Shown here: piece by piece, positions 12,283-41,255 of the stretch
Layout: every line of letters starts with the position of its first letter
Position numbering within the stretch: position 1 is the stretch's first letter
Assembly (NCBI GenBank): GCA_020346325.1
Contig: CP070782.1
Span: 3,438,492-3,482,694, forward strand
DNA length: 44,203 nt
From: Phycisphaerales bacterium
GTDB taxonomy: Bacteria; Planctomycetota; Phycisphaerae; Sedimentisphaerales; Anaerobacaceae
Reading direction: 5' to 3'
The notes under the pieces: model-generated
The model's input: only the letters and a program-made list of their open reading frames with translations
Databases searched by the model: none
What the model was told of the DNA's origin: nothing
Program-made: the position numbers and the translations under genes

Positions 12283-13902
12283 CTATCGCCCCCGCCACTC
12301 GCCCAGCATGCGCTTGAGGCGATGGAGAATTCCATCGCGGGCCAGCACGGGCGGAACTACCGCCGAGGCACGCAGTTTCTCCAGGGATTCGGCGTTCTCG
12401 GCCGCGCGTGCGGCTGCCAGGTCCGAGAGTACGTGCGGGATTTCCTCGCGAAGGGAAAGGAGACGGGTGAACGCCCGCCGATCGAATTCGAGCAGTTCGC
12501 AGTCCGTCGTGGCGGTCATCGTTGCGCTGCGCGGTAGACCAGTGAGAAGGCTCATCTCGCCGAACAGGGCGCCGGCCTGTAGGTCGAACTCGATGGGCTT
12601 GTCCGTCTCGGAATTGCTGATGCTGCCGTGCAGCTGCCCCTGGACGAGAACGTAGAACGATTCTCCCGTATCATTCTGGCGCATCAAGGTCTCACCGTGC
12701 GTGAAATGGGTGCGTCTGATGTCTCGGGCGACGCCCTTGAGTTCGTCCCGGCTGAGCATGCAAACACCCTCGGCGTCGGCCATGAGCTTGCGTCCGAAGT
12801 CACTGGCCAGCAGATCGTCCACGATACTCTCGAGCTCCGAGGCCAGGGGTTTTTCGAACTTCTGCGCGTGCACCGCCTCCAGGAAATTGCCCAGCAGCCG
12901 ACCGCTCATAGGGAAGGGGATCTCGATGCCTCGGCGGTTGAACTTGTACCAGATCATCCGCATCACGTGGCCTTCAATCACCGCACGCTGCTCGTATTGC
13001 CTCGACCAGAAGCGCAGCACGTATTCGATGCAGAAATCCTTGAAGCCGGTGACATAGGCGTCGGGTGCAGGCAATTTCTCAACGGTAGACACGCTTTGCG
13101 CCGCCTCCAGAAGGGCCTCGATCACGTCGCCGGGCGCATCGCCATAACTGGCCGCCACGGGTACCTCGTGGCGACGCAAGCTGGTGGGGGAGGAGAAATT
13201 CCGAATTGTCAGATCCGCGAGTTTGCCGTTGGGGATGATCACGACGTGGCCGCCGATGGTGCGCATGCGCGTCTCGCGCCAGTTGACGAGGAACACCTTT
13301 CCGATCTCGCCGTCTACCTCGATCCAATCACCGACCGACATGGACCGACTGGCGTGCAGCGACATGCCGGCCAGGAGATTGCCCAGCACGCCTTGCATGG
13401 CGAAGCCGATAACACCGGTGACGATCGCGGTCGAGGTGAGCAGCACGCTGATGTTGAATCCCAGTTGATACTTGACCAGCATAAAGGTGGCGCCCAGCAT
13501 GATTGCCAGACGCAGGATGCCGCGACTGAGCCGAGTGAGCGGACAGGCGCGGCCCAGTTGGGCAAATGTCTCGACGAGCAGCCCTTCGGCCAATCGAACG
13601 ATGGCGTAGATCCCCCAGAACGTCAGCCAGACTTGATGGTAGGGACGGGGAAGCACCACCCCCCGGGTCCGGAACCAGGAGGTCAGCGGAACCGAAAACG
13701 CCAGCACCAGAATCGAGAAGGCGACGTGACTGAGCAATGCCCTGAGAAAGTGCCGATGGGAGCGTCGTGTTGGCTCGATACTGTCTGAAATGCCGTATCG
13801 CCGGCGCAGCGGCAGCGACAGCAGATACGCGACAAACACCACTAAGAATGCCAGTCCAACATTCTGGATGTACGGCAATGCGGGCTCAAGCCATGTCAGC
13901 AT
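12283..13902 (-). CDS. MscS-type mechanosensitive channel with C-terminal cyclic-nucleotide-binding domain
   Basis: A 539-residue inner-membrane channel. Several N-terminal transmembrane helices (about 8-30, 57-77, 88-110, 125-145) precede the MscS pore helix and beta domain (about 150-260), which contain GFAMQGVLGNLLAG and VGDWIEVDG followed by VNWRETRM and IPNGKL. A cytoplasmic alpha/beta region ends near 365. The C-terminal part (about 395-510) is a cNMP-binding domain. Its phosphate-binding cassette is complete, FGEMSLLTGLPRSA, with Glu449 and Arg458 in the positions that hold the ribose and cyclic phosphate. The fusion is known from cyclic-nucleotide-gated relatives of MscS, where ligand modulates opening. 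It is the last gene of the operon and its start overlaps the MBL gene by 17 nt. An adenylate cyclase two genes upstream makes cAMP the likely ligand. Confidence 0.9.
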   Translation of the reverse strand: MLTWLEPALPYIQNVGLAFLVVFVAYLLSLPLRRRYGISDSIEPTRRSHRHFLRALLSHVAFSILVLAFSVPLTSWFRTRGVVLPRPYHQVWLTFWGIYAIVRLAEGLLVETFAQLGRACPLTRLSRGILRLAIMLGATFMLVKYQLGFNISVLLTSTAIVTGVIGFAMQGVLGNLLAGMSLHASRSMSVGDWIEVDGEIGKVFLVNWRETRMRTIGGHVVIIPNGKLADLTIRNFSSPTSLRRHEVPVAASYGDAPGDVIEALLEAAQSVSTVEKLPAPDAYVTGFKDFCIEYVLRFWSRQYEQRAVIEGHVMRMIWYKFNRRGIEIPFPMSGRLLGNFLEAVHAQKFEKPLASELESIVDDLLASDFGRKLMADAEGVCMLSRDELKGVARDIRRTHFTHGETLMRQNDTGESFYVLVQGQLHGSISNSETDKPIEFDLQAGALFGEMSLLTGLPRSATMTATTDCELLEFDRRAFTRLLSLREEIPHVLSDLAAARAAENAESLEKLRASAVVPPVLARDGILHRLKRMLGEWRGR

Positions 13903-14749
13903 GATTGCGGTTTCCCTTTATCGTTAGCCATTGGCCCGATCGCGCCAGCGCGGCGCCGGGCACGCATTTCTTAACTTGCTGCTCCAGGGCGTTGAGTGCT
14001 TGGTCCGTCGCCTCCGGGGCGTGATGACCCAACAGCACGCGTTCGACGCCCACCGACCCTGCGATTCCCACGCCGTCCTCCCAACACGTGTGTCCCCATC
14101 CGACGAACGCATCCGCATTCGCCTCCGCAAAATGCGCGTCGATAACGAGCAAATCCGCAGGTTTGGGCTCGCCACACATTGTGACGAACGCTGTTTCCTG
14201 CGCTTTCGTCCGGTTGCGCCACTCGATATCGGTAGCATACACCAGCGCGGCGCCGCTCGCATCATCGATGCGATAAGCGCGGCAGCCCCCGGGATGGGGC
14301 ACCGGACACTGGCGCACGCGCAGGTTGCCGATTCCGATTTCCTCGGCATCGAACGTGGCGAATTCGAAGCGAGCTTCCATCTGCTCCCACGAGACTGGCC
14401 AATAAGGTGGTGCCAACACCCGCGTCACGACCTCGCGAACATCCCCATCAGCCAGTGCCGGTCCCATGAACTTGAAAGACCAGCCCGACTCATAGAACAG
14501 AGGATTCATGGTCAATCCGACCATATGGTCAAGATGATAGTGTGAGAACAGTACGGCTACCTCGCCAGGTCCCATCGTCGCCAGTTCCCTGGCGATAGTG
14601 TGCATACCGGTTCCGGCGTCGAACACGAGGCGCTCACCTTCTGAGCTGACGAGCAGCAGCGACGTTGTGTCGCCGCCGAACTGCTCGAAAGCAGTGCCGG
14701 TGGCCGGCTGGCTGCCGCGCATTCCGCCAATGAACAGTTGCATACTCAT
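13886..14749 (-). CDS. MBL-fold metallohydrolase, candidate cyclic-nucleotide phosphodiesterase
   Basis: A 287-residue metallo-beta-lactamase-fold enzyme without signal peptide, so cytoplasmic. Both metal sites are present: His70-x-His72-x-Asp74-His75 (SHYHLDH), His152 (PVPHPGG), Asp174 (YATD) and a late histidine pair at 242-243 (LLGHHAPEATD). The FDAGTG strand before the first site matches the RNase Z/PhnP/class II phosphodiesterase branch rather than beta-lactamases. The start is the ATG at 14749, which overlaps the cyclase stop as ATGA. An ATG 30 nt further upstream is in frame but unnecessary. Lying between an adenylate cyclase and a cNMP-gated channel, it may hydrolyse cAMP. That is context inference, since lactonase or phosphodiesterase activity on other substrates fits the fold equally well. 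Confidence 0.8.
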   Translation of the reverse strand: MSMQLFIGGMRGSQPATGTAFEQFGGDTTSLLLVSSEGERLVFDAGTGMHTIARELATMGPGEVAVLFSHYHLDHMVGLTMNPLFYESGWSFKFMGPALADGDVREVVTRVLAPPYWPVSWEQMEARFEFATFDAEEIGIGNLRVRQCPVPHPGGCRAYRIDDASGAALVYATDIEWRNRTKAQETAFVTMCGEPKPADLLVIDAHFAEANADAFVGWGHTCWEDGVGIAGSVGVERVLLGHHAPEATDQALNALEQQVKKCVPGAALARSGQWLTIKGNRNHADMA

Positions 14750-16842
14750 TTCTGCGTTAGCTCCCACACTCCATCCCATTGAGCGGGCGGATCGGTGGCC
14801 AATTCAGCGCAGCGCCGGGCGTACTGCTGTGCAGCCGGATCGTCCGGCAGTTGTTTGAACGCCGTGGCTGCCTCGGCAAAGGCGCCTGCGCGAAAATGCG
14901 TCAATCCGCTCTCAAACGTTTCCCCGGTGGTTGGCTGAGCTTCGCCTGCCAATCCCACAAGTTCGTACACCGCCACAGCGCTCTGGCGACCGACCACGCG
15001 CAAGTCCGCCAGTTTGCGGCCCTGGAATTCGGCCGAGGCCAGCCGCCACGTGCTCTCGGCGACCATCGTCTCGGTGCCGAAGGCCTTGTTGGCGCCCTCC
15101 AGACGCGCGGCCAGGTTAGCGGCATCGCCCAGGATCGTATAGTTGAAACGTTTCCGCGAGCCCATGTTGCCGACGACAACCGGGCCCGTGTTGAGCCCCA
15201 CCCGCATGTGCAGCGCTGCTCCCGTGCGCTGCTGATACGCCGGGCGCAATTCGTTGAGTCGCCGCTGGCAACGCAATGCCGCCCGGCACGCCCGGACTGC
15301 GTGATCCGCCTGTTCCAGCGGCGCATTCCAGAAGGCGATGATTGCATCGCCTTCGTATTTGTCCAGCGTGCCACCCTCTTCCAGGATGATGTCGGTCATC
15401 TCGCTGAGGTAATCGTTGAGCAGGGCGGTCAACTCCACCGGCCCCAGCTTCTCAGAAAACGTTGAGAAGCCGGCCAAATCAGTGAACATGATCGTCAACT
15501 CGCGTTTCTCGCCCCCCAGTTGGAGATGCTTCGGATCGCGCAAGATCTTTTCAATCACCTCGCCGCTCAGGTAGTGCCGGAAGGCCTGTTTGAGAAACGC
15601 CTTTTGACGTCCCTCGGCCCAGTAATTCATCGCCAGTGTGCCGACGAGTCCGAGTCCCACCGCGGTCTCCTGGGGCACGATCGGCCACCACCAGCCCTTG
15701 TCATAGGCGGCAAAGCCGATAAGCATGGGTAGCCCCAGCCACGCCGCGGTGAGTGGCCCCGCCTGCCACCATCGTCCGGCGTAGGTCAGGCACAGGCTTG
15801 CGAGGATGGCCGTGGCCATCACGCCCGGGATGACCGTTGCCGAATTTGCCTCAGAGATAAACGAGTCGGTGAGCAGATTGTCGACAAACGTCGTGTGCAA
15901 GACGACACCCGGACACTTCGGATTGACCGGAACCGGTCGCAAATCCAGCAGCGACGGAGCGCTACAGCCCATGAACACGTAGCAATCCTTGAAGGTTTCC
16001 GGCGACAGCGTTGGAGTCTCTTCTTCACGCAACCGTAACTCAGACTGGACGATGGCCGCCGCGGAGATGGCTTCGGGCAGCCCGTTTTCACCGCGAAATC
16101 GCAGAATGGCGTGGCCCTTGCGGTCGAGAGGCACAACTTTGCTCCCGACGCGCAACCCGTCAGGTGCAGCAGCGACGGCATTCGGTTCCGAGAACGTGGC
16201 CATCCAGGCGGCCAGTCCCAGCGCTGGAATCTCGACGCCACCAAAGCGGCAGAACGGCGCCAGTCGCCTGAATATACCGTCTGCATCCGGCCGTCCCGTA
16301 GCGTGCCCGGCCGCAGCGGCGCCGGCCGCAATCTCCGCCACCGGGAACAACAGATGGGGCGACTCTATCGCGAGGGACATATCGATGGCTACGTCGGGAC
16401 GCGCCATATACGCCGGCCAGGTGGTCTGGCCGCCTCCGGGAAGCACAGGCAAAATCGCTGGCGGACCGCCCCGTAGCGCCTCGCCCATCGCTTCGTCGTC
16501 CGGCACGCCGTAAACGGACGGTTCAGTGAAGAGCAGATCCAGAGCCAGGGCTCGAGCTCCGCCACGCTGGCAAAACGCTGCGACGGCTCCATAGACTTCA
16601 CGAGGCCAGGGCCAACCCCAACCGTTTTCGCGTTGGGCCCAGTCCAAGCTGGCCTGGTCCAGTAGAATCAGCTTGACCTGCGGCGATGGGATCTCACGCC
16701 GCGCGAAGAAATGGGCCCGCCACGTCCACGTCGGGGCTTCCCACGATTCGAGCCAGCCCAGGTGCCATGCCGCCAGCGCCGTCGCTCCCGTGACCAGGCC
16801 GATCATCAATCCTCGCAAACATCTTCTACCGTGCTTGGACAT
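14746..16842 (-). CDS. CHASE2-domain class III adenylate cyclase
   Basis: A 698-residue membrane cyclase. One N-terminal transmembrane helix (about 10-30) precedes an extracytoplasmic CHASE2 sensor (about 35-330, with LILLDQASLDW and GARALALDLLF). Three transmembrane helices follow (about 337-410), then a class III catalytic domain (about 440-620). Metal aspartates are Asp455 (MFTDLAGF) and Asp499 (EGDAIIAF). Lys495 and Thr569 occupy the adenine-recognition positions, and Asn576 and Arg580 the transition-state positions (NYTILGDAANLAAR). The Lys/Thr pair marks a class IIIb adenylate cyclase; this class is often bicarbonate-responsive. A short helical tail (about 645-690) resembles a TPR-like segment. 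The gene begins 23 nt after the M48 gene and overlaps the MBL gene by 4 nt. The signal sensed by CHASE2 is unknown. Confidence 0.92.
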   Translation of the reverse strand: MSKHGRRCLRGLMIGLVTGATALAAWHLGWLESWEAPTWTWRAHFFARREIPSPQVKLILLDQASLDWAQRENGWGWPWPREVYGAVAAFCQRGGARALALDLLFTEPSVYGVPDDEAMGEALRGGPPAILPVLPGGGQTTWPAYMARPDVAIDMSLAIESPHLLFPVAEIAAGAAAAGHATGRPDADGIFRRLAPFCRFGGVEIPALGLAAWMATFSEPNAVAAAPDGLRVGSKVVPLDRKGHAILRFRGENGLPEAISAAAIVQSELRLREEETPTLSPETFKDCYVFMGCSAPSLLDLRPVPVNPKCPGVVLHTTFVDNLLTDSFISEANSATVIPGVMATAILASLCLTYAGRWWQAGPLTAAWLGLPMLIGFAAYDKGWWWPIVPQETAVGLGLVGTLAMNYWAEGRQKAFLKQAFRHYLSGEVIEKILRDPKHLQLGGEKRELTIMFTDLAGFSTFSEKLGPVELTALLNDYLSEMTDIILEEGGTLDKYEGDAIIAFWNAPLEQADHAVRACRAALRCQRRLNELRPAYQQRTGAALHMRVGLNTGPVVVGNMGSRKRFNYTILGDAANLAARLEGANKAFGTETMVAESTWRLASAEFQGRKLADLRVVGRQSAVAVYELVGLAGEAQPTTGETFESGLTHFRAGAFAEAATAFKQLPDDPAAQQYARRCAELATDPPAQWDGVWELTQK

Positions 16843-16865
16843 GTCGTTCTCTTGTGTGCGAGGTT

Positions 16866-17792
16866 CTAGTGGCTGGCTACGATCGGTTGAATGGCCGCTG
16901 AGAAGCGTTCCTGCCTGGCGGCATCGGACACCAATTCAGTTTGTCGGGCCGTGGAGGCAAGGGCACCAACGCGGCTCTGGGCCGAAGGGTGCGTCTTGGC
17001 GAATCCGAGTCCGCCCGCATCTGCTAGTCGCTCATCCATGCGTTGGAGCATGGTGATGATCGAGGCTTCCGGGTAACCGGCTCGTCGCAACAGTTGCACG
17101 GCAGCGGCATCGGCGTCGCGTTCTTGCGTTCGCGAGTAGCCGCTGGTGGTCAGCGTCATTACGACATCGCTCACCGACGCCTCGAACTCGCGCGTCAGCG
17201 AGGCCAGTTCTTCGCTACCCAGTTGCTTGGCCGATTCGGCCGCGATGATCGTGAACGCTTCGGTCAAGCGTCCCTGTTTGATCGCACTGAGGCCGTGCTT
17301 CTTCTCCACGTGGCAAATCTCGTGGGCCAATACGGCGGCCAGTTCATCCTCGCTCTCACAGCAGCGTAGCATGCCCCGCGTGACCAGGATCAGTCCGCCC
17401 GGGGCGGCGAAGGCGTTGATCTCGTCGGAGTCCAGCAAGAGGAAGTGGTACCCGCCGAACGTTTCGGGACGATTAGAGAAGACGGCCAGCGACTGACCGA
17501 GCAAGTTCAGGTACGCGTTCGCCTCTGGCTGATCAAGCGGCGGATAGCTCTGGAACACCTGCGCTGCCACGGCCCGTCCGGTGTAATACTCCTGCTCCGG
17601 CGTCAGATCCTGATACGTCTTTTCGATGGCCTTGACGCCGCGATTGAGCGATTCGGCTTCATCGGCTGAAATCACGCCGGCTTCCCAGGCCAACTGCGTA
17701 CCGATCTCAGTGACCTCTGCGCAACCGAAGAAGAGTGCCGCGATCAGCAGGGCAAAACATGCCATGGTCAGGAATGAGGGTCTCGCCTTCAT
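16866..17792 (-). CDS. M48 family metalloprotease, putative lipoprotein
   Basis: A 308-residue zinc peptidase of the periplasmic BepA/YggG (LoiP) type. A signal sequence ends in a lipobox-like FFGC (Cys24), so it is probably membrane-attached outside the cytoplasm. The active site is His157-Glu158-x-x-His161 (AHEICH). The distal glutamate is in TQERDAD (Glu224). NAFAAPGG and VTRGML, typical of soluble M48C members, precede the active site. Such enzymes act in envelope protein quality control, often on outer-membrane proteins. The start overlaps the SH3b gene stop by 4 nt (ATGA), with GGGAGG ahead of it. Its presence in a cAMP/MscS operon suggests that it responds to, or shapes, envelope stress. 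The substrate is unknown. Confidence 0.9.
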   Translation of the reverse strand: MKARPSFLTMACFALLIAALFFGCAEVTEIGTQLAWEAGVISADEAESLNRGVKAIEKTYQDLTPEQEYYTGRAVAAQVFQSYPPLDQPEANAYLNLLGQSLAVFSNRPETFGGYHFLLLDSDEINAFAAPGGLILVTRGMLRCCESEDELAAVLAHEICHVEKKHGLSAIKQGRLTEAFTIIAAESAKQLGSEELASLTREFEASVSDVVMTLTTSGYSRTQERDADAAAVQLLRRAGYPEASIITMLQRMDERLADAGGLGFAKTHPSAQSRVGALASTARQTELVSDAARQERFSAAIQPIVASH

Positions 17793-18253
17793 TGGGCGCC
17801 TCCCGGCAGGTTGCCTTGAGCGCGGAATTCCTTGATCTGTTCCTCGCTGATCACAAACGCTGCCATCCGATCCACCCAGGTATAGTCCAGTGTCCCCTCG
17901 GCTTTGAGTTTGGCCTCGACCTGTTCGTTGAAGCCCTTGCCAGCCAGGGCCACTTCGTCATCCGAGACCCCCGTGGCGGCGTCGGAGGTTCCGGCTCGCA
18001 TCGCGATCGGCTTGGTTGACAACGCCGATTCGTGTAACCAGCCCTTCTTACCATCCGCAGTGGTCACGGGATACCAACCCCGCTGCAATGCTCCGGTTTG
18101 AACCTTGGCGCCGTATTCTACCGTGGCGATGACACGTCCCAGTTGTGAAGGCGTCGCACGCACCTTGACATTGCGCACCTGGACGCTCATCGACGTGGCC
18201 AGTGCCACACTGGCAGAGACCGCCAGCAGCACCGCCAGAGCCCTGATCTTCAT
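17789..18253 (-). CDS. Exported bacterial SH3-domain protein
   Basis: A 154-residue protein with a signal peptide (about 1-20) and one bacterial SH3 domain (about 22-82; it begins VQVRNVKVRATPS and contains GWYPVTT and KKGWLHESAL). About 70 polar residues follow without a recognised fold, ending in a basic/acidic helix. Bacterial SH3 domains commonly bind peptidoglycan or envelope peptides. It is the first gene of the five-gene operon and overlaps the M48 protease start by 4 nt, so the two products may work as an envelope pair. AGGAGA lies about 10 nt upstream of the ATG. The role is inferred from the domain only. Confidence 0.82.
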   Translation of the reverse strand: MKIRALAVLLAVSASVALATSMSVQVRNVKVRATPSQLGRVIATVEYGAKVQTGALQRGWYPVTTADGKKGWLHESALSTKPIAMRAGTSDAATGVSDDEVALAGKGFNEQVEAKLKAEGTLDYTWVDRMAAFVISEEQIKEFRAQGNLPGGAQ

Positions 18254-18461
18254 GGCAACTGTCTCCTGTCAAACTGAATTCCATTTCTGCTGCCCGAGCT
18301 CCCGAGCCCGCTTCGGACTACACAGGGTACAATAGTACCGGGTACTGCCCCAAAAGCAAGCGGTCGCATATCGTTGTCCCGCGGAGCCGTTCAACATTCT
18401 GCGCTATGTTTCCGAATCCTCTCTGTGGTATTATGATAGCTTCCTGAAGGAGAAAGACGAT
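18254..18461. promoter_or_regulatory. Divergent promoter region with GGTAC repeats
   Basis: This 208-nt gap separates the leftward cAMP/MscS operon from the rightward TPR-SRPBCC gene. On the minus strand TTGCTT (18359-18354), a 16-nt spacer and TACTAT (18337-18332) form a weak sigma70-like promoter about 80 nt before the SH3b start. Overlapping the -10 are three GGTAC/GTACC units at 18326-18330, 18335-18339 and 18341-18345. The first two make an inverted repeat around AATA and the third repeats the first directly. This is a possible operator. For the rightward gene an AAGGAG motif at 18447-18452 is clear but a promoter is not. All promoter assignments are by eye. Confidence 0.3.
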
Positions 18462-19580
18462 TTGGGGCCAGAGAAATTCGAACCTGATGTGATGGTCTCG
18501 ATAGACAGGTTCAAGATCATGGCTGGAACGACTGTGTTTTTCGTTCTGTTGATGCTTGCCGGCTCGCTGACCGGCAGCGCCGCCTCAGGCGGCGCAGGGA
18601 TCGCAGAAAGCGGCGACCGAAGGACAGCGTACGAACTGTACCTGAGCGGCAATGTTCTTTGCCACAATGGGGACTACCGCGGGGCTGTTTCCGTTTTTCG
18701 CCAATCCATTGTCCTGGATACTGATTACTGCTATGGCCACGCCAACCTTGGAGTCGCGCTGGCGAAGCTGCAGCGATTCCAGGAAGCCATCGACGCGTTT
18801 ACCTTCTGCATCGATGGGAAGTATGGTTCGGGTGCCGATCGGTTCGTCTTCCACTTCAACCGGGCTCTCGCCCTGCTAGAAAATGGACAATTGGAGGCCG
18901 CACAGCGAGATCAGACGATCCTGAGACAGCTCGATCCGGCGCGAGCCGAGAAGTCCGGGGACACGCATGACTATATTCTGATGGATACAGCCTACGTTGA
19001 AGCGCGCAATGAGTTGGCCAAGAACCGCTTGTTCGAAGAACACCGGGCATCGATCACCAGAGGAAAGATCATCGTGCGGAGGGTGCCGGGAGCCGGGAAG
19101 AACACGGAAGAAGTCGAGGCCATGGGCCTCATCGGAGGTACGCTCGATGAGGTATCCGGCGTCCTGGCGGATTACGCGAAATACTCGGAATTCATGCCCA
19201 ATGTGAAGAAGGTGATTATCAAGAGCTCGAACAACGGCGTGGTCGTCGTTGATTGGCAGCTTAAGCTGCCGATGGGGTATGTCAAGAAGTATCGATTGAA
19301 GTGCTGGGCGAAGGACGAAGGCAATCGCGTGCAGCACTTTTGGAAGAAACTCCCTTGGCCCGGACTGAAGCCAAAGGAGACCATTGTGGACACCTACGGG
19401 CAATGGATTCTCGAAGTGTTCCCAGGGCATACCCCTAAGGTCCTGGCCTATTATCGTGTGTATACCGATCCGGGCAAAATCCCTCTGGGAACCGGATGGA
19501 TCGTGGATTTCCTCAGCGAGCAGAGTGTGTCTAATATAATCAAATGTACACGACAGCGAGTGAAGGATCTCTTCTATTAG
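18462..19580 (+). CDS. Exported TPR-SRPBCC fusion protein
   Basis: A 372-residue protein with an N-terminal hydrophobic signal or anchor segment (about 20-42). At least two TPR units follow (about 50-160, for example AYELYLSGNVLCHNGDY, then YGHANLGVALAKLQRF). The C-terminal SRPBCC/START-like domain (about 205-370) has the helix-grip pattern GTLDEVSGVLADY, YSEFMPNVKKV and a long C-terminal helix. SRPBCC folds hold hydrophobic ligands, and relatives include the CoQ10-binding/polyketide-cyclase group. The chosen start is TTG 18462 because AAGGAG lies 9 nt upstream. ATG 18492 is possible but lacks a ribosome-binding site. It is divergent from the cAMP operon and convergent with the caspase-fold gene. 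No exact function can be given. A lipid or quinone carrier role outside the cytoplasm is speculation. Confidence 0.75.
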   Translation: MGPEKFEPDVMVSIDRFKIMAGTTVFFVLLMLAGSLTGSAASGGAGIAESGDRRTAYELYLSGNVLCHNGDYRGAVSVFRQSIVLDTDYCYGHANLGVALAKLQRFQEAIDAFTFCIDGKYGSGADRFVFHFNRALALLENGQLEAAQRDQTILRQLDPARAEKSGDTHDYILMDTAYVEARNELAKNRLFEEHRASITRGKIIVRRVPGAGKNTEEVEAMGLIGGTLDEVSGVLADYAKYSEFMPNVKKVIIKSSNNGVVVVDWQLKLPMGYVKKYRLKCWAKDEGNRVQHFWKKLPWPGLKPKETIVDTYGQWILEVFPGHTPKVLAYYRVYTDPGKIPLGTGWIVDFLSEQSVSNIIKCTRQRVKDLFY

Positions 19581-19628: not shown

Positions 19629-20603
19629 TCACGTGCCGTTCGGCTCCTTGATCGTTTCGTAGACGCGCGCGATTTCTACCAGCAGAGTTTCCAGTCTTGA
19701 GAAGTACGTCTCCTCGGGGATCTGCGCCTGCGCATCCCGCAGTTTCATCACCTCCAGTTCAAGTTGATTGCGTTTCGCTCGTAGACTTACCGGAATGCGC
19801 GCCTCGGCTTCGCTGTGGCGCAGGTGAAACTGGTGGGCCCGGTATCCGTCGAGCGAGGCATTGTCGCTGGCTCTCTGTACGGGTCGGATGCCACGAAACC
19901 AATCCGCCGGCGTGCCCAGGGCATCGCCGTTGTCGTCCAGCAGGGCGTGCTCGGTAGCCAATCGCCCGGCGGTCGCGTAGAACTGGTTCGTTCGATGGGA
20001 AGCCGTCAAGAAAGCCTCCAGCAAAGAGGTCTGTCCGTCCTTATCCAGGTCCGCCTCGGGTGCGATGATCGCTTCTGCCAGGTATTGCCCGAACCGTGCG
20101 TAGTTTTGCTCGAATCCGCTTTTCGTGGCCGTGATGATCACCCGCTCCGGTGCCGATAGTTGCTTGAGAAACGGCGCGCTGGATGAGGCGGTATTGATAA
20201 CCGCAACGGGTCTTGATATCGGCTTGAGCCAGCGGGTCAGATCGTTGGCTGAGATGTCAGGCCCTCGAAGGTTGAACTTGGCCGTCCTGCCGTCGAAGGT
20301 TCCGTGTCCGATCAGTACCAGCCAGAAAGCGGCGGTCTGCTGGGACTGTTCGCTGAGTATCTTCTCCAAACGCACTCGGTCAGAGAGATCTTCCTCGTCA
20401 TCCAGGCCGATGGCCAGGAAAGCCGCTTCGCTTTTCGAACATGCCTGCTCCCAGTCGCCGGCCCATTTAGCGAATTGGGCTGCGTATTCAGTGTTTCCCG
20501 GCGCACCGACCACGACGATTACGGTTTGTACCTGTGCGCTTGCCAGCGCCGGCAAGACAATGGCAGATACCAGTGCCGTGATCAGTAGTATCGCCGTTCG
20601 CAT
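19629..20603 (-). CDS. Secreted caspase/C13-fold protein lacking the catalytic cysteine, with EF-hand loop
   Basis: A 324-residue protein with a signal peptide (about 1-23, ends ASAQ). The core resembles C13/caspase-like peptidases: beta strands, a His100-Gly101 motif (LVLIGHGTFDG) and a second strand ending in VAVINTASSSAPF. In active relatives that strand ends in a D/T-x-C-x-S-G motif. Here the cysteine position is Ala139 and no other cysteine is nearby, so it is probably not a cysteine protease. Residues 185-196 (DLDKDGQTSLLE) form a canonical EF-hand calcium loop. The last 70 residues are helical and charged. Its ATG shares one base with the stop of the VWA gene (TGATG), and it is the final gene of the eight-gene operon. 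It may be a calcium-dependent binding or scaffold partner of the VWA proteins, by inference. Confidence 0.75.
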   Translation of the reverse strand: MRTAILLITALVSAIVLPALASAQVQTVIVVVGAPGNTEYAAQFAKWAGDWEQACSKSEAAFLAIGLDDEEDLSDRVRLEKILSEQSQQTAAFWLVLIGHGTFDGRTAKFNLRGPDISANDLTRWLKPISRPVAVINTASSSAPFLKQLSAPERVIITATKSGFEQNYARFGQYLAEAIIAPEADLDKDGQTSLLEAFLTASHRTNQFYATAGRLATEHALLDDNGDALGTPADWFRGIRPVQRASDNASLDGYRAHQFHLRHSEAEARIPVSLRAKRNQLELEVMKLRDAQAQIPEETYFSRLETLLVEIARVYETIKEPNGT

Positions 20604-22972
20604 CACGGCATCCCCTTTCGTCGACGCAGGGCCCATTCGGCGATGAAGCAGGTCGCCACGAAGACAAAGAGCGCCGGGAGAACGCCAGGCAAATCCCAGA
20701 GTGGTCTGGTCCAGGCTTCCGTGATTGGGACCTCCTGGTGGGGCAGGCTGCGCGCGAAGTGGTCCAACTGATCGGTCTCGACGAGTCGACCGCCAGTCTG
20801 CCGGGCGATTCGCTCCAGCAGGGGGCGATTGGTCTTGACGGACTGAAACTCGAGGGCCTCCAGATCGACCGCCCACCCGGCCGTCGCCTGGTCCAGTTCG
20901 GTTCCGTTGGCATCTGTCACCGTGGCTTGTGCGACGTAGCCGCCACTTCGACGCGGGACATAAGATGTCTCGAACAGGCCGCTCTCGGTCATCACCGGCT
21001 CGGCGGTTAGCTGCACCGATTCTCCTCCCGGTTCTCGCACCTTTATCGAGACGGAGACGTTGTCGAGGGGCTCGAAACACTTGTTGTGGGCTCGAACCTG
21101 AAGCTTTGTCGGCCGCCCGATTTCGTCCGGCCGGTGCTTGGCCAGGAGCGATATTCGGTCGGGCACGTCCGCGATCAACCAGCGCAGTGTCTGACGCCAG
21201 AATTTGTCCATGTCGTCATGCGTTTCCGGATCGCGCAGGCCCCAGCGCCATACGTCGCCGATCGTCAGGGCCGCCGTCCGCCCGTTACCCAGCCGCTGCA
21301 CGATCAGGGCAGGAAACTGCTGGCCCTCTTCGTCTCCCAGGGTGGCGACAACTCGGGCGCCGGGCTTGGCCGCACGGATACGGTTGAGGACACGGAACTC
21401 GGGCATCTCCGCCAGCCGCTGCCGTTCCTCGTCTTCATTGTCACGCAGACGCGTCCACGGTTGCAGCCAGCCTTCTCGGGTCAGATGCAGGCGCATCTGG
21501 AGCGTCAGTCGGTCGGCTGGCAGGCGGTCCAGATAGACCGGCAAGATGCCGGCAATCGGGGTGTGCTGAAGATTGCCCTGTCGAAACGATTCTCGGCCGC
21601 CCAGCATGAGGAACCCGCCGCCACGCTCGGTAACGAAACGCCGCAACAGATCCATTTGGTCGTGCGTGAAGAACTCGGCCTCCACATCGTCAAGAACAAC
21701 CGCGTGATACTCGAATAGTTCTTCCCGGGTCGTCGGAAACCCATCCCGCAGCTCACGTTCATCCCGCGTGTTCAAGCGCACGAGGACCGGTTGATCGTAT
21801 TGTTCCGCTTCATCCTCTTCCGTCGGTTCGAAGCCTCGATAGAGTGGGTTGCTCTGTTCGCCTGCCCGGCCCCGCCAGTCGTATTTCGGCTCACGTTTCG
21901 CGACGCGGATCAGGCCCACCAGGTGAACTTGTTCATCTTCGCTGATGGACCGCTGGAGGAACTTGTATTCCCAGTTGGGCCGGCCGGTAACGTAGAGAAT
22001 GCGGTAGGGGCCTCTTCCTCGATCCACGGCGAGGGTGCGCACGTTGTTGGCCAGCGTGGCCTCGGCATCGGAGTCAATCTTGCTCGGCGGTGTCTTCTGT
22101 GACATCTCAGCCACTCGGACTTGATAGAACAGTACACCCGTTCGCTCCGGCCGCACGCGGAAGCGAACCACATGTTCTGCGTCACCCTGGCGAACGCTCC
22201 ATTGCTGCCGTTCGACCAGATGGCCTGAATCTTCCATGAGGTCGATCGAGACAGTTTGCCCTGCGCATCCGGTGGCCTCCACCTTGGCCTGGATCGTGAC
22301 CGGGGCATCTTCGAACGAGGTTTGGCTGACTGAGACATTCGTCACGGCAATATCGCGCGGGGGCCGGGCCCGGCCCATCAAAACGGGGTAAACCGGGGGC
22401 AGCCCCGACAGATCGGAAGATTGCTCCCCCATGTCGGTGGCGTTACCGTCCGTCATCAGCAGCACGCCGGCCAGCGGTCGGCATTCGTACCGTTTGCCTA
22501 GTGTCTGCAACGCTGTGCCCATGTCGGTGGCGGTGCCGTCGAAAACCAGTTCGGAGAAATCAGTAGTCCGGCGCAGGCGAGAATCGAAAAGGTATTGACG
22601 GAGCTGGAAGTCCTCCGAAAGAGACGCCAACCACTCGGAGGTGCCGGATTGCAGCGTCGCCTGTAGAATCTCTGCACGACTCTGCTCGCTGCCGCGGTCA
22701 CGAATGTTCATGCCGCTGCTGTTATCGGCGACGACCACGAACAAGTTCGCGCCCGATTTGGCTTGTTGGCCGCTCCAGAGTGGCTCGATCAGGCACCAGG
22801 CCAGGGCCAGGAGGCCCAGCAGTTTGAGACCGAACGCGATCGCGCGGGCGGGTCCGATTTGAGGCGCCCGCCGATAGGCCCAAACCATCAGGACCCCGGC
22901 TGCCAGCAGCAAAATCCCGGCCGGCCAGACCCAGTGACTCCCGGGGATTGTGATGGTACCCAACCCAGGCAT
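20603..22972 (-). CDS. Membrane VWA/GATase-like protein
   Basis: A 789-residue inner-membrane protein. Two N-terminal helices (about 15-32 and 44-66) are followed by a von Willebrand A-like domain (about 75-215). Its metal site reads Asp83-Asn-Ser-Ser-Gly87 rather than the standard DxSxS, with LLMTDGNATD as a later strand. Immunoglobulin-like strands lie at about 225-330. A class I glutamine-amidotransferase-like domain (about 335-560) has RILYVTGRPNWEYKFL and GGGFLMLGGRESF but no catalytic triad that I can identify. Another beta-sandwich and a C-terminal helix (about 755-780) end the protein. This architecture is common in planctomycete and verrucomicrobial MoxR-linked operons. ATG 22972 overlaps the upstream stop by one base (TGATG). 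A TTG one codon earlier is less likely. It probably assembles with the coiled-coil and BatA-like neighbours. Confidence 0.82.
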   Translation of the reverse strand: MPGLGTITIPGSHWVWPAGILLLAAGVLMVWAYRRAPQIGPARAIAFGLKLLGLLALAWCLIEPLWSGQQAKSGANLFVVVADNSSGMNIRDRGSEQSRAEILQATLQSGTSEWLASLSEDFQLRQYLFDSRLRRTTDFSELVFDGTATDMGTALQTLGKRYECRPLAGVLLMTDGNATDMGEQSSDLSGLPPVYPVLMGRARPPRDIAVTNVSVSQTSFEDAPVTIQAKVEATGCAGQTVSIDLMEDSGHLVERQQWSVRQGDAEHVVRFRVRPERTGVLFYQVRVAEMSQKTPPSKIDSDAEATLANNVRTLAVDRGRGPYRILYVTGRPNWEYKFLQRSISEDEQVHLVGLIRVAKREPKYDWRGRAGEQSNPLYRGFEPTEEDEAEQYDQPVLVRLNTRDERELRDGFPTTREELFEYHAVVLDDVEAEFFTHDQMDLLRRFVTERGGGFLMLGGRESFRQGNLQHTPIAGILPVYLDRLPADRLTLQMRLHLTREGWLQPWTRLRDNEDEERQRLAEMPEFRVLNRIRAAKPGARVVATLGDEEGQQFPALIVQRLGNGRTAALTIGDVWRWGLRDPETHDDMDKFWRQTLRWLIADVPDRISLLAKHRPDEIGRPTKLQVRAHNKCFEPLDNVSVSIKVREPGGESVQLTAEPVMTESGLFETSYVPRRSGGYVAQATVTDANGTELDQATAGWAVDLEALEFQSVKTNRPLLERIARQTGGRLVETDQLDHFARSLPHQEVPITEAWTRPLWDLPGVLPALFVFVATCFIAEWALRRRKGMP

Positions 22973-25900
22973 CAATCGCTGTCCCCCAGATTCTCGAAGT
23001 ACCTGCGGACGAGTTCAGCGTAGCGGTCCGGCACCGGATCGCGATCGATCGGCACCAGCGCCTCGTCCGATTGAAGCTGCGCCAGTCTTTCGTCAATCTG
23101 TTGTCGCAATTCGGTCAGCGGCTGCATGATCTGCGAGCGAACGAGGTCCCACTGGGGCTCTTTCCCGTGACGGACGAACTCGGCGCGCATAGTCTGGGCG
23201 CGGTCGCGGACCCGAGCCACCTCCTCGCGCAATTCGCGCTCCGTCAGCATCTCCTCGACGTCGCGTAGACTGTCCGACCATTCGCGATAGCCCTGGCCCG
23301 TTAGTGGCCCCCGTTCTCCTATCTCTTCCCACCGTCCGGAATCTGCCGGACCGCCACCAAAGCCTGTTGGATCGCCCTGATTCCTTTGGCCGCCGGCGCG
23401 GGCCGTGCGTGTGCGCGCATCTGGTAGAGGTGTCTCGTCGCGAGACGAGCCCGGCTGGCCCGCCTCATCTTGATCTTCGACTTGTCTGTCCCCCTGGGAT
23501 TGACGGGAAGGCTGCCGGCCCGGATTCTCACGCGGGCGGCCGTCGTCTCGGCGGTTGGCCTGGGACACTTCCTCATCAACTTGTCGCGTCAATTCGTCGA
23601 TCTGCTGTCGTGCCAGGCGCAGTGCCTCCGTTTCGTCGCCGAGCACGTTTTCCGCCGCCTCCTCGACGCCTCTCCGCATCGCTTCGATCCCTTCAGCAGC
23701 TTGGCGCTCTACCTCCTGAGCTTGCGGCAGAAAGTTACGACGCAGCAGTTCGCTGGTCGTTTCCAGGGCGCGGTCCACATTTCCGGTGCTCGCCTGGCGC
23801 AGCGTGTCGTATAGCGTTCTCGACGCAAGTGGCTCGGAGGCCTCCGACTGTTCGCTCAGGTCGCGCATCTGATCGATCAGCTCTTCCATGTGTTCCTGCT
23901 GCTGTTCGATCTGCTCGGCCAGTTCGAGGTAACCCTCAGAGTCTCTCAGTGTCTTCTGGCGCGAATCGATCTGCTCTCGTATCTCTTCCGCGATCTCCTG
24001 CTCTCGCTCATCGAGTTGTTGCGCCTGGTCCCGCAGGTCACGCATCGCCTCGCTGAGTTGACTCGAGGTACGCCGGCGAAATTCATCACGCATCTCGTCG
24101 AGTTGTCGCCCGGCGCGGGTGGTCGAGGTGATAGCCCGCGAGACCATTCCTCGCTCCAGTTCCTCCGTCGACCGACGCATTTCTGAACGGGAATCATTGA
24201 GTCGTTGACTGGCCTCGGCCATGCGCTGACGATTCTCGGGGCCTTCCATACGCTGCTGGAGCTCATCGATATCGCTCATCGCTTCGAGCTGCTCATCGCG
24301 CAGACGCCGCAATTCCCGCAACACTTCTTCACGCTGCTGTTCGTCCTCTGCCTCGCGCAGTGCTGCCTGGGCCTCTCGCAGACGTTTGGCCATCTCGTTC
24401 TGCCGCCGGGCTAGGTCGCGGAGCCGGTTGAGGACCTGAAGGTCCTCGCGCTGTGTTTGTTGTTCACGCGACTGAGCCGTGCGCTGCGTTTCGTAGCGAT
24501 TCTCCTCCTGTGTCAGCTCTAGTTGTTGGAGCTGTTGTTGTGAACGCGAGGAAGCCGAGTTGGCACTGGCGGACCGGCCGGCATTTCGCCCGCGGGCGAC
24601 CTGGTGCTCGCGCTGTCTGAGCTTGAGCAACTCCTGATAAGCCGACTGCTCAGCCCCCAGAGCCGGCATCAACTCGCCGATCGACGACGACTCGTTCGCC
24701 TGGGCCAAACGGTCCACGGCCGTTTCCATGTGGCCGGCCGCCGCGTCCAGGGCTCCGGCCGAGGCCGGGTCCTCCGCCTCAGCCAATGCTGCATGGGCTT
24801 GCTCCAGCGCCTCACTTTGAGACTGGCGGACGACCTCCAGGTCTTCTTTCTGGTCCTCGGTGCCACCGGCGACATCAACCTGCTGTTTGATGTTCCAGGT
24901 CGCACTGATGATCTGCTTCTGGAGGCGAGCCAACTGCTCCCCGGGCCTTTCCTGCTGTTGCTGGCCCTGGTTTTCATTCTGATTTTGTTGGTTGGCCTGA
25001 GACTGGCTCTCGCGAAAGATTTCCTCGAATGGACGGACTTCCGCGAAATAGATGTCACTAACGGAGCGGCGTGGCTGCCCGCCGGGTCCCAAATCATTGG
25101 CCCAGAAGTAATAGGTCAAAAGCTGATCGGGCTCGGCGCCGAGTTCTTCCAGCGCCAAGACGTGCTGAATCTGTGGTTTGCGATCTGTTGCCTCACCCCG
25201 CGCCAGCGTAACGCTCTGACTATCCGCGCCGGCCAGCGTGTACGTGAGCCCGTAACCGGTCGCGCCGTAGTCATCCGTGACCTCGGCCTCCAGCGTCAAT
25301 TCCTCCAGCGGTGAGACGACCACGTCGCGATTGGGAAACACGGGCGTAATGGCCGGCGGGAGGTTCTTATGAACGTTGACGGCAAAGCGGGGCGGCATCT
25401 TGTTGGATCGGCCCTCGGCATCCGCCAAGTGCAGTTCGTAGCGTTCACTTTCGGTCGCCGTAAACGAAGTGAACAGTATCTGCGAACGCTCCTTCTCGGC
25501 GCTCAGTCCCAAGGCGATGCCAGAGCGCGGGACGAGCCGGCCCGACGTGACGGGCTTGTTGAGGGTGAAGGTCAGGGTGACGTCGGAACCTTCGGCGACG
25601 CTGATGCGCCGGGTATCCTCAACGATCTTTTCGGGTAGCCCTGTGTAGGCCGGAAAGACGATTCTTGCGTCGATTTTGGCCAACTTCGGAAGTTCGTAGA
25701 CTTCGATCGAATAGTCGCGGGTACGCTTGCCGGCGTATTCGATATGATACCGCAAGTCCGACGTGACGTTGCGAATAATGCCCCCGAACACGGGGTCGTC
25801 CAGACTCCGAACGAGCCTCCGTTTTTCGGGTTCCTCACCCGGGGGCCCCACAATCAGGCTGACCTCGGCGGGCATGGTACCGTCGAAACGGGCCAAGACC

Positions 25901-26502
25901 ACCACGGGCGACCCCGATTCGACGGTGGCATCCCCCGGCGTGACGCTGATCTCCTCGCCGCGCGTCAGAAGTCCGCCCGGGCGACTGCGGGGCAGCAGAG
26001 ATGTTGGCGCCAGGATCTGCGACAGAGCGACCACCAGAAACAGCAGGGCGGCGATCCGACCGATGTCGGCCAGCACGAGCTTCTGCGTCGATATGCTGCG
26101 AAGCCAGTCGTGGTCCGTTGCGTGTACGAGAGCCTCCTTGAGAACCTGCTTCTGGAGATAGCCGAGCTGTCCGTCCGGACCTTGCGGCTTCTGTTCCACC
26201 GCCGCCAGCAACAGTGCACGCAGATCGGGGTGACGCTGCTCGATATGTCGTGCCACGACGCGATAGTCGGGCTCCCTGCGGCGAGATTTGTAGAACACGT
26301 TCACGGTTACTGCGATCGTGGCCAGCGACAGAAGACCGGCGGCCCAAGGCGATCTCCATCCCCAAAGCCAATCGATGCCGATCAGGCCCAGCGCGACCAG
26401 TCCGGCCAGGGACCAGCAGAGCGCCAAACGTGTCGCCACGTCCACGCGCTGGCGACGTTTGACGATCGGCTCCAGTTGTCTGCGAAGGGCTCTTTCAATC
26501 AT
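22972..26502 (-). CDS. Giant membrane coiled-coil protein (DUF4175-like)
   Basis: A 1176-residue protein. Two N-terminal helices (about 25-45 and 52-70) and a third (about 148-166) anchor it in the membrane. Residues about 170-490 are beta-rich and look like immunoglobulin-type repeats (TPGDATVESGSPV, SVAEGSDVTLTFTLNKPV, LPPAITPVFPNRDVVVSPLEELTLEAEVTDDYG). From about 500 to 1000 it is an extremely Gln/Glu/Arg-rich heptad region, clearly coiled coil. A Pro/Gly/Arg-rich linker (about 990-1070) and a last helical segment follow. It resembles DUF4175-type proteins of MoxR-linked operons. It overlaps the BatA-like gene by 4 nt and the downstream VWA gene by 1 nt. A role as a long envelope scaffold for the VWA complex is inferred; no enzymatic motif is visible. 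Confidence 0.75.
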   Translation of the reverse strand: MIERALRRQLEPIVKRRQRVDVATRLALCWSLAGLVALGLIGIDWLWGWRSPWAAGLLSLATIAVTVNVFYKSRRREPDYRVVARHIEQRHPDLRALLLAAVEQKPQGPDGQLGYLQKQVLKEALVHATDHDWLRSISTQKLVLADIGRIAALLFLVVALSQILAPTSLLPRSRPGGLLTRGEEISVTPGDATVESGSPVVVLARFDGTMPAEVSLIVGPPGEEPEKRRLVRSLDDPVFGGIIRNVTSDLRYHIEYAGKRTRDYSIEVYELPKLAKIDARIVFPAYTGLPEKIVEDTRRISVAEGSDVTLTFTLNKPVTSGRLVPRSGIALGLSAEKERSQILFTSFTATESERYELHLADAEGRSNKMPPRFAVNVHKNLPPAITPVFPNRDVVVSPLEELTLEAEVTDDYGATGYGLTYTLAGADSQSVTLARGEATDRKPQIQHVLALEELGAEPDQLLTYYFWANDLGPGGQPRRSVSDIYFAEVRPFEEIFRESQSQANQQNQNENQGQQQQERPGEQLARLQKQIISATWNIKQQVDVAGGTEDQKEDLEVVRQSQSEALEQAHAALAEAEDPASAGALDAAAGHMETAVDRLAQANESSSIGELMPALGAEQSAYQELLKLRQREHQVARGRNAGRSASANSASSRSQQQLQQLELTQEENRYETQRTAQSREQQTQREDLQVLNRLRDLARRQNEMAKRLREAQAALREAEDEQQREEVLRELRRLRDEQLEAMSDIDELQQRMEGPENRQRMAEASQRLNDSRSEMRRSTEELERGMVSRAITSTTRAGRQLDEMRDEFRRRTSSQLSEAMRDLRDQAQQLDEREQEIAEEIREQIDSRQKTLRDSEGYLELAEQIEQQQEHMEELIDQMRDLSEQSEASEPLASRTLYDTLRQASTGNVDRALETTSELLRRNFLPQAQEVERQAAEGIEAMRRGVEEAAENVLGDETEALRLARQQIDELTRQVDEEVSQANRRDDGRPRENPGRQPSRQSQGDRQVEDQDEAGQPGSSRDETPLPDARTRTARAGGQRNQGDPTGFGGGPADSGRWEEIGERGPLTGQGYREWSDSLRDVEEMLTERELREEVARVRDRAQTMRAEFVRHGKEPQWDLVRSQIMQPLTELRQQIDERLAQLQSDEALVPIDRDPVPDRYAELVRRYFENLGDSD

Positions 26503-28601
26503 ATCTGTTCCCCCTCAGGTGCCGGATCAGTCGGGGTGAGCCAGCCGCCCAGCCAAGTCTCGACGAGCAGCGCGGCCAGCGCCGCGACGATGACCCATCG
26601 CCAGAGCTTCTGTTCCGATTCCATCTCGGAGAAGCTGCTCTGGGCCGTGGCTTGTTCGGTCCTCTCGATAGCGATGTTGGAGGGGGCCATGGAAACGCCC
26701 AATCTCTCGAGATCTTCGATGGGCATCGGGTCGGTCCGCGATTCTTTCGGCGGCAGGTTGATCGCGAACCGCCTCGTATTGGCTGACGACTCGCTGGTAT
26801 AGATCCCCGGAAGATTCGTCTGAGCGAATGTCTGCTGGTCCGCCTCCAGGTTTATCACTGATCCATCCGGCTTGCGCATGCGCCGGTTGCCTCGGCTCGA
26901 CATGGTTCGGATCGGTAGAGGTACCGGGTCTCCCACGGCGTACTGTGCTTGTCGGAGCGCGAGTGTCCCGCCATATTCGAGAGCCGAGTACAGCAGGGGG
27001 GCGAATTTGGACGACAACGCCAAGTCGCTATCGGCCGGGTGCCAGCCGCAGGTCCACACCAGCAGCGAACCTCTGCCCACGGGGATCTCGAACCAGGCCG
27101 GATCGCCGCTGTCGAAATGCGCCAAGATCTGGGCCTCGGGACAATTAGCCAAATCAACGCGACGGTACTTCCAGAAGTGAATTCGCGTGAAGTCACCAAA
27201 GCGAGGGTCGGCAAAGGAAACCAGCAAGGGGTGGTCGAACTCAATCTGAGCCAACATGGCATATTGGTCGACGTCGGCTTCCTGGGAATCGACGTTTTCT
27301 GTGCCTGCCAAGTCGGACAAAACCCTGACAGCTTCAGGGGATCTCAGCACCAGCATGACCGTACGGCCTGATTCCAGGTATTGACGCAGGGGCGCCACGC
27401 TCTGCCCGATCACTCCATCGGCGACGACGACCAGATGTGCCATTTCGATGTCTTCACGGCCAACAGTTTCGTCGGGTACGCGACGCAAAACCCGCGCGTT
27501 CAACACATCATCGATGTCGAAGGCCTGGCGAAGGTAAAACAGCATGTCCGTAGGGTCGTTCGGATCGTCATTGCCAACGTAGAGGACGTTGACCGGGCCC
27601 GGCGTGGACGGTGCCACATACAGCGTGTTATCGAAGTCGTGGTCATCACCGGTGAGCACGAGCCGTTGGCCCGCTGACGGCTGTGTCCGTGTCGGAACGC
27701 GCACGACGACGCTGCGACCGGGTGCGACGTATACGTCCACTGTCGAGCTTTCGTCAGCCCAGCCCAGTTGGAAACGTTCTGCGGTGGCGTCGGCCGAGTT
27801 GGTGATGCGGACCCGGGGAAGGGTATCGCGGTCAGAAGAGGCGAGCCGGTTGCGATCTGCCATTAGCTGCAGCGCTGCGTTGGTTGTCCCGCGCGGCCGA
27901 ATCAGCTTGACCGTCAGTTTCATTCCTTCGGGCCATTCATAGGCTTGAAGGGCTTCAACACCGCTACCCTGCTGGAGGTCACTGATGAGCAATATTTCCC
28001 GCTGACCGCCGGCTCGGCCTTCTTCATTGATCTCGTCGTCTTCCATCGTCTCGGCTGTGGTCACGAGGGCGCGACCCAGTTCAGTGCGGGCCCAGCTTGG
28101 CGACAGTTCCGACATCTGCTGATCGGCGACCGAGGCACGCCGCTCTGGCGGTATCTCCGCCCATTGCTCGAATCCTAGAAGTGTCTGCGCGTCCTGATCG
28201 AAACTCATAATGCTCACGCGATCGTCCGGACCCGCATCTTCCAGCGCCGTTCTTGCCGCGTTGACGGCTTGATCCCACATTCCCTCACGCCGCATCGACG
28301 CGCTGGTATCGATGAGTATGGCCAAGCGCTTCCCGACACGCTCCGGACGTTTCGAAACGGCGCGCGGGATGAAGGGCCGGGCGAAGGCCAGCGCCAGCAG
28401 ACACAAGATGAGGCACCGCAGGATCAGCAGCGGCAAATGCTCCAGACGCCGCCGATTTCGCAGACGCGGCGCGGTCGTGCGCAGAAACATCAGCGTGCTG
28501 AAGGCCACGCGCTGCCGCGTGTGGCGGCGGATCATATGGAGCAGGATCGGCAGCCCCACCGCAGCGATACCAGTCAGAGCCAGCGGATACAGAAAACTCA
28601 T
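26499..28601 (-). CDS. BatA-like membrane VWA protein
   Basis: A 700-residue protein starting with the BatA N-terminal double-helix domain (MSFLYPLALTGIAAVGLPILLH at 1-22, then an Arg-rich turn and a second helix at about 56-75). A VWA domain with a complete MIDAS, Asp98-Thr-Ser-Ala-Ser102 (ILIDTSASM), covers about 92-230. Long beta-rich and GATase-like regions follow to about 630, and the protein ends with a membrane helix (about 670-690). Bat proteins bind target proteins through the metal site and are remodelled by MoxR ATPases; in Bacteroides the operon affects aerotolerance. The ribosome-binding site GGAGG lies inside the end of the DUF58 gene, and the ATG overlaps that stop by 4 nt. It also overlaps the coiled-coil gene by 4 nt. 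Confidence 0.85.
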   Translation of the reverse strand: MSFLYPLALTGIAAVGLPILLHMIRRHTRQRVAFSTLMFLRTTAPRLRNRRRLEHLPLLILRCLILCLLALAFARPFIPRAVSKRPERVGKRLAILIDTSASMRREGMWDQAVNAARTALEDAGPDDRVSIMSFDQDAQTLLGFEQWAEIPPERRASVADQQMSELSPSWARTELGRALVTTAETMEDDEINEEGRAGGQREILLISDLQQGSGVEALQAYEWPEGMKLTVKLIRPRGTTNAALQLMADRNRLASSDRDTLPRVRITNSADATAERFQLGWADESSTVDVYVAPGRSVVVRVPTRTQPSAGQRLVLTGDDHDFDNTLYVAPSTPGPVNVLYVGNDDPNDPTDMLFYLRQAFDIDDVLNARVLRRVPDETVGREDIEMAHLVVVADGVIGQSVAPLRQYLESGRTVMLVLRSPEAVRVLSDLAGTENVDSQEADVDQYAMLAQIEFDHPLLVSFADPRFGDFTRIHFWKYRRVDLANCPEAQILAHFDSGDPAWFEIPVGRGSLLVWTCGWHPADSDLALSSKFAPLLYSALEYGGTLALRQAQYAVGDPVPLPIRTMSSRGNRRMRKPDGSVINLEADQQTFAQTNLPGIYTSESSANTRRFAINLPPKESRTDPMPIEDLERLGVSMAPSNIAIERTEQATAQSSFSEMESEQKLWRWVIVAALAALLVETWLGGWLTPTDPAPEGEQI

Positions 28602-30579: not shown

Positions 30580-30645
30580 AATGGTCTCCCTTTCCTGTTT
30601 CCAGTGTCCCAGTCGCTGCATCGCTGGCGTTCTATTGACATCGTG

Positions 30646-38706: not shown

Positions 38707-38715
38707 TTGTCTCTC

Positions 38716-41244: not shown

Positions 41245-41255
41245 TTCTCTCTCTC

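Follow-up and report, generated by a model that had tools for sequence, protein, structure and literature searches.

Channels of the MscS superfamily with a C-terminal domain binding cyclic nucleoside monophosphates (cNMP), the bCNG channels, have reportedly been known since Caldwell et al. described them in 2010, Ss-bCNGa being a member, and to our knowledge the work on them has so far treated the channel alone. The present study deals with an operon of a Phycisphaerales bacterium (Planctomycetota) encoding such a channel together with an exported SH3b protein, an M48 metalloprotease, a CHASE2 adenylate cyclase and a metallo-beta-lactamase-fold (MBL) hydrolase. It lies in a window of 44,203 nucleotides (nt), the whole stretch of DNA analyzed (contig CP070782.1, positions 3,438,492 to 3,482,694). 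The operon channel likewise consists of an MscS pore and a C-terminal cNMP-binding domain, but it belongs to a dedicated clade and shares its operon with a cyclase and a probable phosphodiesterase.

The other parts also have described relatives. In Sinorhizobium meliloti, the CHASE2 cyclases CyaD1, CyaD2, and CyaK respond to an envelope-side signal via the envelope partner NsrA, with Clr downstream (PMC13001267). The operon cyclase is a CHASE2 receptor cyclase too, whereas its partners are SH3b and M48 proteins instead of a beta-barrel, and its output would be a channel instead of the CRP-type Clr, no CRP-type protein being detectable in the source genome. The atypical class-II phosphodiesterases Rv1339, YhfI, and CpdA are marked by the [T/S]HxHxDH motif and PF12706 (PMC9293780), and cyclic AMP (cAMP) and cyclic GMP (cGMP) are the preferred substrates of YhfI (PMC9117128). 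The operon hydrolase shares the PF12706 fold and the motif with Rv1339, CpdA of Corynebacterium, YhfI, and Apyc1, but is only about 20% identical to them. The M48 proteases LoiP, YcaL, and BepA serve in envelope protein quality control, and the plug residues of BepA have been described (PMC7950410). The operon protease has in common with them HExxH, the third Glu ligand, the HP plug, the Arg and its putative lipoprotein nature; it differs in lacking a TPR domain, in being paired or fused with SH3b and in its link to a cyclase. In the Pycsar systems (PycC with PycTM or PycTIR), a class III cyclase likewise adjoins a membrane protein with a cNMP domain; the operon differs from these in its receptor cyclase with adenine-type residues, its MscS channel, protease, SH3b, and MBL proteins and its strict long-term conservation.

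All the parts therefore belong to known families. No published account of the operon, of CHASE2 with M48/SH3b or of MscS with a cyclase was found in the open-access literature, in which no circuit controlling a bCNG channel was named either; as far as this literature goes, a circuit of this kind inherited as one unit, its presence in two phyla and the link between SH3b-M48 and cAMP are new. Our reading, to which we assign a probability of about 0.6, is that the operon is a dedicated second-messenger circuit leading from the envelope via cAMP to a bCNG channel, with a built-in phosphodiesterase. The SH3b protein and the M48 lipoprotease, paired outside the inner membrane, would convey or process information on envelope status for the periplasmic CHASE2 domain, and the cyclase informed in this way would make cAMP. 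This cAMP would bind to the C-terminal domain of the MscS-fold channel from the same operon and change its opening in one direction or the other, letting ions or solutes in or out, and the MBL hydrolase would end the signal by hydrolyzing cAMP. The reading draws on the integrity of the genes and of their catalytic and binding residues, on co-inheritance, on the single clade of the channels, on the single detectable cNMP receptor, on the MBL-cyclase linkage and on the SH3b-M48 fusions. Maker, probable eraser and receptor come as one heritable unit.

Organization and conservation of the operon

The five open reading frames (ORFs) are tightly packed on the minus strand and read leftward over positions 12283-18253. 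The SH3b and M48 genes overlap by 4 nt, the cyclase and MBL genes also by 4 nt and the MBL and MscS genes by 17 nt, while a 23-nt gap separates the M48 gene from that of the cyclase. This layout, first proposed in a sequence-only reading of the window, was borne out by the ORF check, and the Pfam assignments confirmed the domain of each of the five genes. For the MBL gene, the 4-nt overlap holds with the start at 14749; the ATG at 14779 would make the ORF longer, but the Met at 14749 is where the homologues begin.

The operon was compared in 61 relatives, the named orthologues being from metagenome-assembled genomes of Sedimentisphaerales/Phycisphaerae (Planctomycetota). The cyclase (66-75% identity) and the full-length channel (70-79%) are confined to the same 10 genomes, which belong to the genus of the window and to four further genera. 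Seven of the nine other genomes carry the whole set of five on a single contig, with order and direction unchanged; in G001 and G002 the contig ends inside the cyclase, and both halves fit the same order. As no other genome among the 61 carries either the cyclase or the full-length channel, and as the genes stand contiguous in an unchanged order wherever the contig permits, the association of cyclase and channel is not due to chance. A scan of 84,980 species genomes with the channel alignment, which reached only the close orthologues and four other MscS proteins, yielded 18 orthologous loci, nine of them complete, the remainder cut by contig ends and none with a different order. A planctomycete outside this family, G683, has the complete five-gene order as well, at locus L209. 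The flanking genes of the window are not conserved, apart from weak matches (24-29%) to two neighboring gene families in a few loci. The earlier description of the operon as a self-contained unit is supported.

A second phylum, judged to be Verrucomicrobiota from one locus (L089, Verrucomicrobiales bacterium), was explored in 195 genomes of the phylum to which L089 belongs. The M48 gene adjoins the SH3b gene in all 30 of the best SH3b loci. The 26 loci of the closer type comprise eight with the full set, seven with four genes but no channel (one of them cut by a contig end), two with SH3b-M48-cyclase and nine with SH3b-M48 alone. Of the 26 genomes with SH3b-M48, 25 encode a cyclase that falls in one clade with those of the operons; in eight it is encoded elsewhere, accompanied by the MBL gene in five of these eight cases, and no MBL gene was seen beside the SH3b-M48 pairs without a cyclase in the 26 loci. 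The distribution therefore suggests three modules, namely an SH3b-M48 envelope pair, a cyclase-MBL pair for making and erasing the signal and an optional channel. The sequence-only reading had staked its proposal on the five families occurring together elsewhere, as they do in the nine complete Sedimentisphaerales copies, in G683, and in eight loci of the second phylum. Its picture of a complete make-sense-erase circuit holds insofar as the five genes occur together across two phyla, but not everywhere, only eight of these 26 loci having all five.

The cyclase and the cNMP-binding channel

The cyclase matches PF05226 (CHASE2; E 7e-40) and PF00211 (E 6e-21). Residues D455, K495, D499, T569, N576, and R580, which the sequence-only reading had listed as intact, are all at these positions and invariant in eight close and 13 phylum-wide cyclases. 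With its CHASE2 and cyclase domains and its metal, adenine and transition-state residues, the protein is a class III adenylate cyclase. It appears to be of the adenine type, the K495/T569 pair arguing for ATP, and cAMP is very likely its product. The source genome encodes one CHASE2 protein, and the cyclase query also gives one match.

In the channel, PF00924, PF21082, and PF00027 all score above their cut-offs, so that it has the MscS pore/beta domain and the cNMP domain that define a bCNG channel. The cNMP cassette, FGE(449)...PR(458)SAT, is present as previously noted, E449 and R458 being invariant in 10 close and eight diverse channels. The protein in all likelihood binds a cyclic nucleotide, and this binding probably alters its conductance. 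The operon channels of both phyla form a single clade (support 100/100) with a stem of 1.2 changes per site, while MscS/cNMP channels in orphan positions or elsewhere in the second-phylum genomes belong to other clades, the sole exception being L178, a second copy in an operon-bearing genome. Four second-phylum channels encoded elsewhere (L307-L310) were considered as relocated operon channels and rejected, as they form a separate clade in the channel tree.

The channel is the only match to PF00027 in the whole source genome, and for this reason no CRP-type receptor was detected there. Because no other cNMP receptor is detectable, gating of the channel can be cleanly tested. Two points weigh against the proposed circuit here. 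The genome (6.5 Mb) has a stated completeness of 76%, and a further cNMP protein may have been missed, although the assembly is one contig. In addition, most second-phylum loci have no channel next to the cyclase, so that the core must also act via something else in these organisms. A wider version of the circuit, in which the channel is the only detectable cAMP receptor in the cell and the state of the envelope, passed via cAMP to an MscS-fold channel and erased in situ, is handled by one operon in two phyla, is put forward tentatively; if true, it would parallel in bacteria the cyclase-phosphodiesterase-CNG-channel logic of animal sensory cells.

The strongest argument that the cyclase signal acts at the membrane is that the same core is repeatedly paired with different cNMP-binding membrane proteins. 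The MscS/cNMP channels that adjoin cyclase-SH3b-M48 loci in G109/G142, G484, and G567 occupy three further positions in the channel tree, some of them weakly supported, and DUF1003/cNMP membrane proteins are encoded close to the core in G075, G097, and G764 (the DUF1003 assignment in G764 was made by eye). The MscS/cNMP fusion alone does not predict the operon, since other families of the class carry full-length channels without partners: no cyclase, M48, SH3b, or MBL gene was found near those of family f11 (L159-L167), and these genomes gave no CHASE2-cyclase match at the strict threshold applied. Distant MscS/cNMP channels (about 25% identity) are also present in plasmid records, many of them from Rhizobium and Azospirillum.

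The sequence-only reading called the channel mechanosensitive, which is an assumption, and bCNG is the preferable name. The channel might instead be a tension-gated osmotic safety valve which the cNMP domain only tunes or desensitizes, tension and cAMP together forming an AND-gate. The intact MscS pore and beta domain speak for this, as does the tension gating reported for the bCNG channel Ss-bCNGa in a title cited in PMC4560390; the same title, however, calls this gating unique within the bCNG family. Both tension gating and the safety-valve function seem somewhat unlikely. A Pycsar-like antiphage system, in which infected cells are killed by a membrane cNMP effector that the cyclase switches on, would have the layout observed, a cyclase adjoining a transmembrane cNMP protein; the cyclase domain is hit by PADLOC models for PycC (best 112 bits) and the cNMP domain by those for PycTIR and other effectors (PycTIR 34 bits). 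These matches are limited to the shared cyclase and cNMP domains, however, and the cyclase, a membrane receptor with CHASE2, has the adenine-type K/T pair. The gene order kept across two phyla, the built-in MBL and periplasmic partners and the lack of a TIR or nuclease effector also make an antiphage role highly improbable.

The MBL hydrolase

Under the proposed circuit, the MBL protein erases cAMP. It carries the motif S69-HYHLDH, and H70, H72, D74, H75, H152, D174, H220, H242, and H243 are invariant; PF12706 is matched at 43.8 bits (cut-off 27). The S/T-HxHxDH motif is present in the family, and the protein has both marks of the atypical class-II phosphodiesterases. An AlphaFold2 (AF2) model built from 32 sequences reached a pLDDT of 93.6, and its top Foldseek match is YhfI of B. 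subtilis (6kns), Apyc1 being also among the matches.

The alternative is that the protein is an RNA-processing or other hydrolase of the RNase Z type and merely co-expressed with the cyclase. Several scores point in this direction and count against an eraser: VIA-align gives Z 29.2 for RNase Z structures and 27.5 for YhfI, the NCBIfam cyclic-nucleotide phosphodiesterase model NF041851 scores only 40.2 bits against a cut-off of 400, and the RNase Z models score the protein as high as the phosphodiesterase model does and match all 32 family members. The RNase Z model TIGR02651 itself gives 42.5 bits, under its curated cut-off of 292.95. The fold does not decide the substrate, since Foldseek favors YhfI while VIA-align slightly favors RNase Z. 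Searching the PDB with the protein alone gave one weak match, 1zkp; nor does the sequence settle the matter, since the family profile retrieves RNase Z, 1zkp, and YhfI together. No protein of the source genome reaches the curated cut-off of TIGR02651, a point in favor of this alternative, but another ORF of this genome fits the model better (56 bits, versus pieces of 22 and 21 bits in the MBL protein). The ORF most like RNase Z in this genome, G000:C1:4343393-4344043, is also under the curated cut-off.

It is the association with the cyclase that tips the balance toward a phosphodiesterase: as described above, the MBL gene stays with the cyclase where the operon is split. Together with the YhfI match and the motif (PMC9293780), this makes an RNase Z-like enzyme unlikely, and the protein is probably the cAMP phosphodiesterase of the operon. 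The earlier suggestion that the MBL enzyme may reset the signal is in keeping with its travelling with the cyclase and with its nearest Foldseek match.

The SH3b-M48 pair and the wider core

The SH3b protein matches PF08239. Its hydrophobic N-terminus (residues 6-24) is read as a signal peptide, and its C-terminal helical region is conserved among the family members. Its AF2 model shows an SH3 part with a pLDDT above 90, a low-confidence linker and less certain helices at 98-147. In the M48 protein, HEICH 157-161, E224, the H268-P269 plug, and R274 are invariant (H157, E158, H161, E224, H268, P269, and R274 in 10 of 10 sequences), which places it among the M48 peptidases of the LoiP/BepA group and indicates a catalytically complete enzyme. 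A hydrophobic N-terminal stretch precedes an invariant G23-C24, read as the lipobox of a putative lipoprotein. The C-terminal TPR domain of BepA is not present in its 308 amino acids (aa), in which Pfam finds PF01435 only.

An SH3b-family search of 294 Planctomycetota genomes showed how far this pair extends. Among the 30 best loci, 27 have an adjacent M48 gene and 24 both M48 and a CHASE2 cyclase, while the channel is beside only a few. The core occurs in two gene orders, SH3b-M48-cyclase and cyclase-SH3b-M48, and in the planctomycete family f82 SH3b and M48 form one polypeptide of about 517-557 aa, followed by the CHASE2 cyclase; of three such fused ORFs scanned with Pfam, two show both domains. 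Because of the adjacent loci, the two gene orders and the fusion, SH3b, M48, and the CHASE2 cyclase very probably act together, and judging from gene neighborhoods the channel and the MBL protein are additions to this wider core. A single clade (100/99) unites the cyclases of SH3b-M48-cyclase loci from the two phyla, those of the f82 fusions standing apart, and complete operons fall at several places inside it; the five-gene state may be ancestral with subsequent losses or may have been assembled more than once.

These counts bear on a further alternative, that the core is an SH3b-M48 system for outer-membrane or peptidoglycan quality control tuned by cAMP via other receptors, with the channel as a co-transcribed passenger in some lineages. 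The core is far commoner than the channel, and the protease has its relatives in envelope protein quality control (PMC7950410); this alternative nevertheless seems quite unlikely, given that no other PF00027 receptor is detectable in the source genome, that the operon channels are a dedicated clade and that cNMP membrane proteins stand beside the core in several independent arrangements. In the circuit favored here, the SH3b and M48 proteins would, rather more probably than otherwise, feed into the CHASE2 domain, and since the M48 relatives act in envelope quality control, the stimulus may by analogy be the state of the outer membrane or of peptidoglycan. No earlier report was found of such an envelope pair being tied to cAMP signaling, as it appears to be across Planctomycetota and the second phylum.

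Coordinates of the operon genes and of related features in other genomes.
Feature	Location	Strand	Evidence
Exported SH3b protein, 154 aa (signal peptide, SH3_3, linker, C-terminal helical region)	17789..18253	-	PF08239, hydropathy, AF2
M48 metalloprotease, putative lipoprotein, 308 aa	16866..17792	-	PF01435, alignment, hydropathy
CHASE2 class III adenylate cyclase, 698 aa	14746..16842	-	PF05226, PF00211, catalytic residues
MBL-fold metallohydrolase, probable cyclic-nucleotide phosphodiesterase, 287 aa	13886..14749	-	PF12706, alignment, AF2, Foldseek
bCNG-type channel, 539 aa (MscS pore/beta domain, C-terminal cyclic-nucleotide-binding domain)	12283..13902	-	PF00924, PF21082, PF00027
Intergenic region separating the SH3b gene from a divergent gene with TPR repeats; operon promoter presumed here	18254..18461	.	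sequence position
SH3b-M48 fusions of f82	L189, L197, L198, L200, L204 (G592, G580, G643, G651, G509)		ORF followed by CHASE2 cyclase
DUF1003/cNMP membrane proteins, alternative candidate effector	L115:12445-13347; L116:4901-5797; L277:8289-9416		near SH3b-M48-cyclase core

The divergent gene (18462-19580), which shares the 208-bp intergenic region with the operon, encodes TPR repeats and a C-terminal part that resembles START/polyketide-cyclase proteins by eye; it is not kept beside the operon in the other genomes. Farther along the window, a long leftward run at 19629-34127 encodes BatA/VWA, DUF58, DUF4159, DUF4175, glutamine-amidotransferase-like, and TPR/Peptidase_MA proteins, and three successive leftward permeases of the MacB_PCD/FtsX type (842, 842, and 806 aa) are encoded at 36178-43676.

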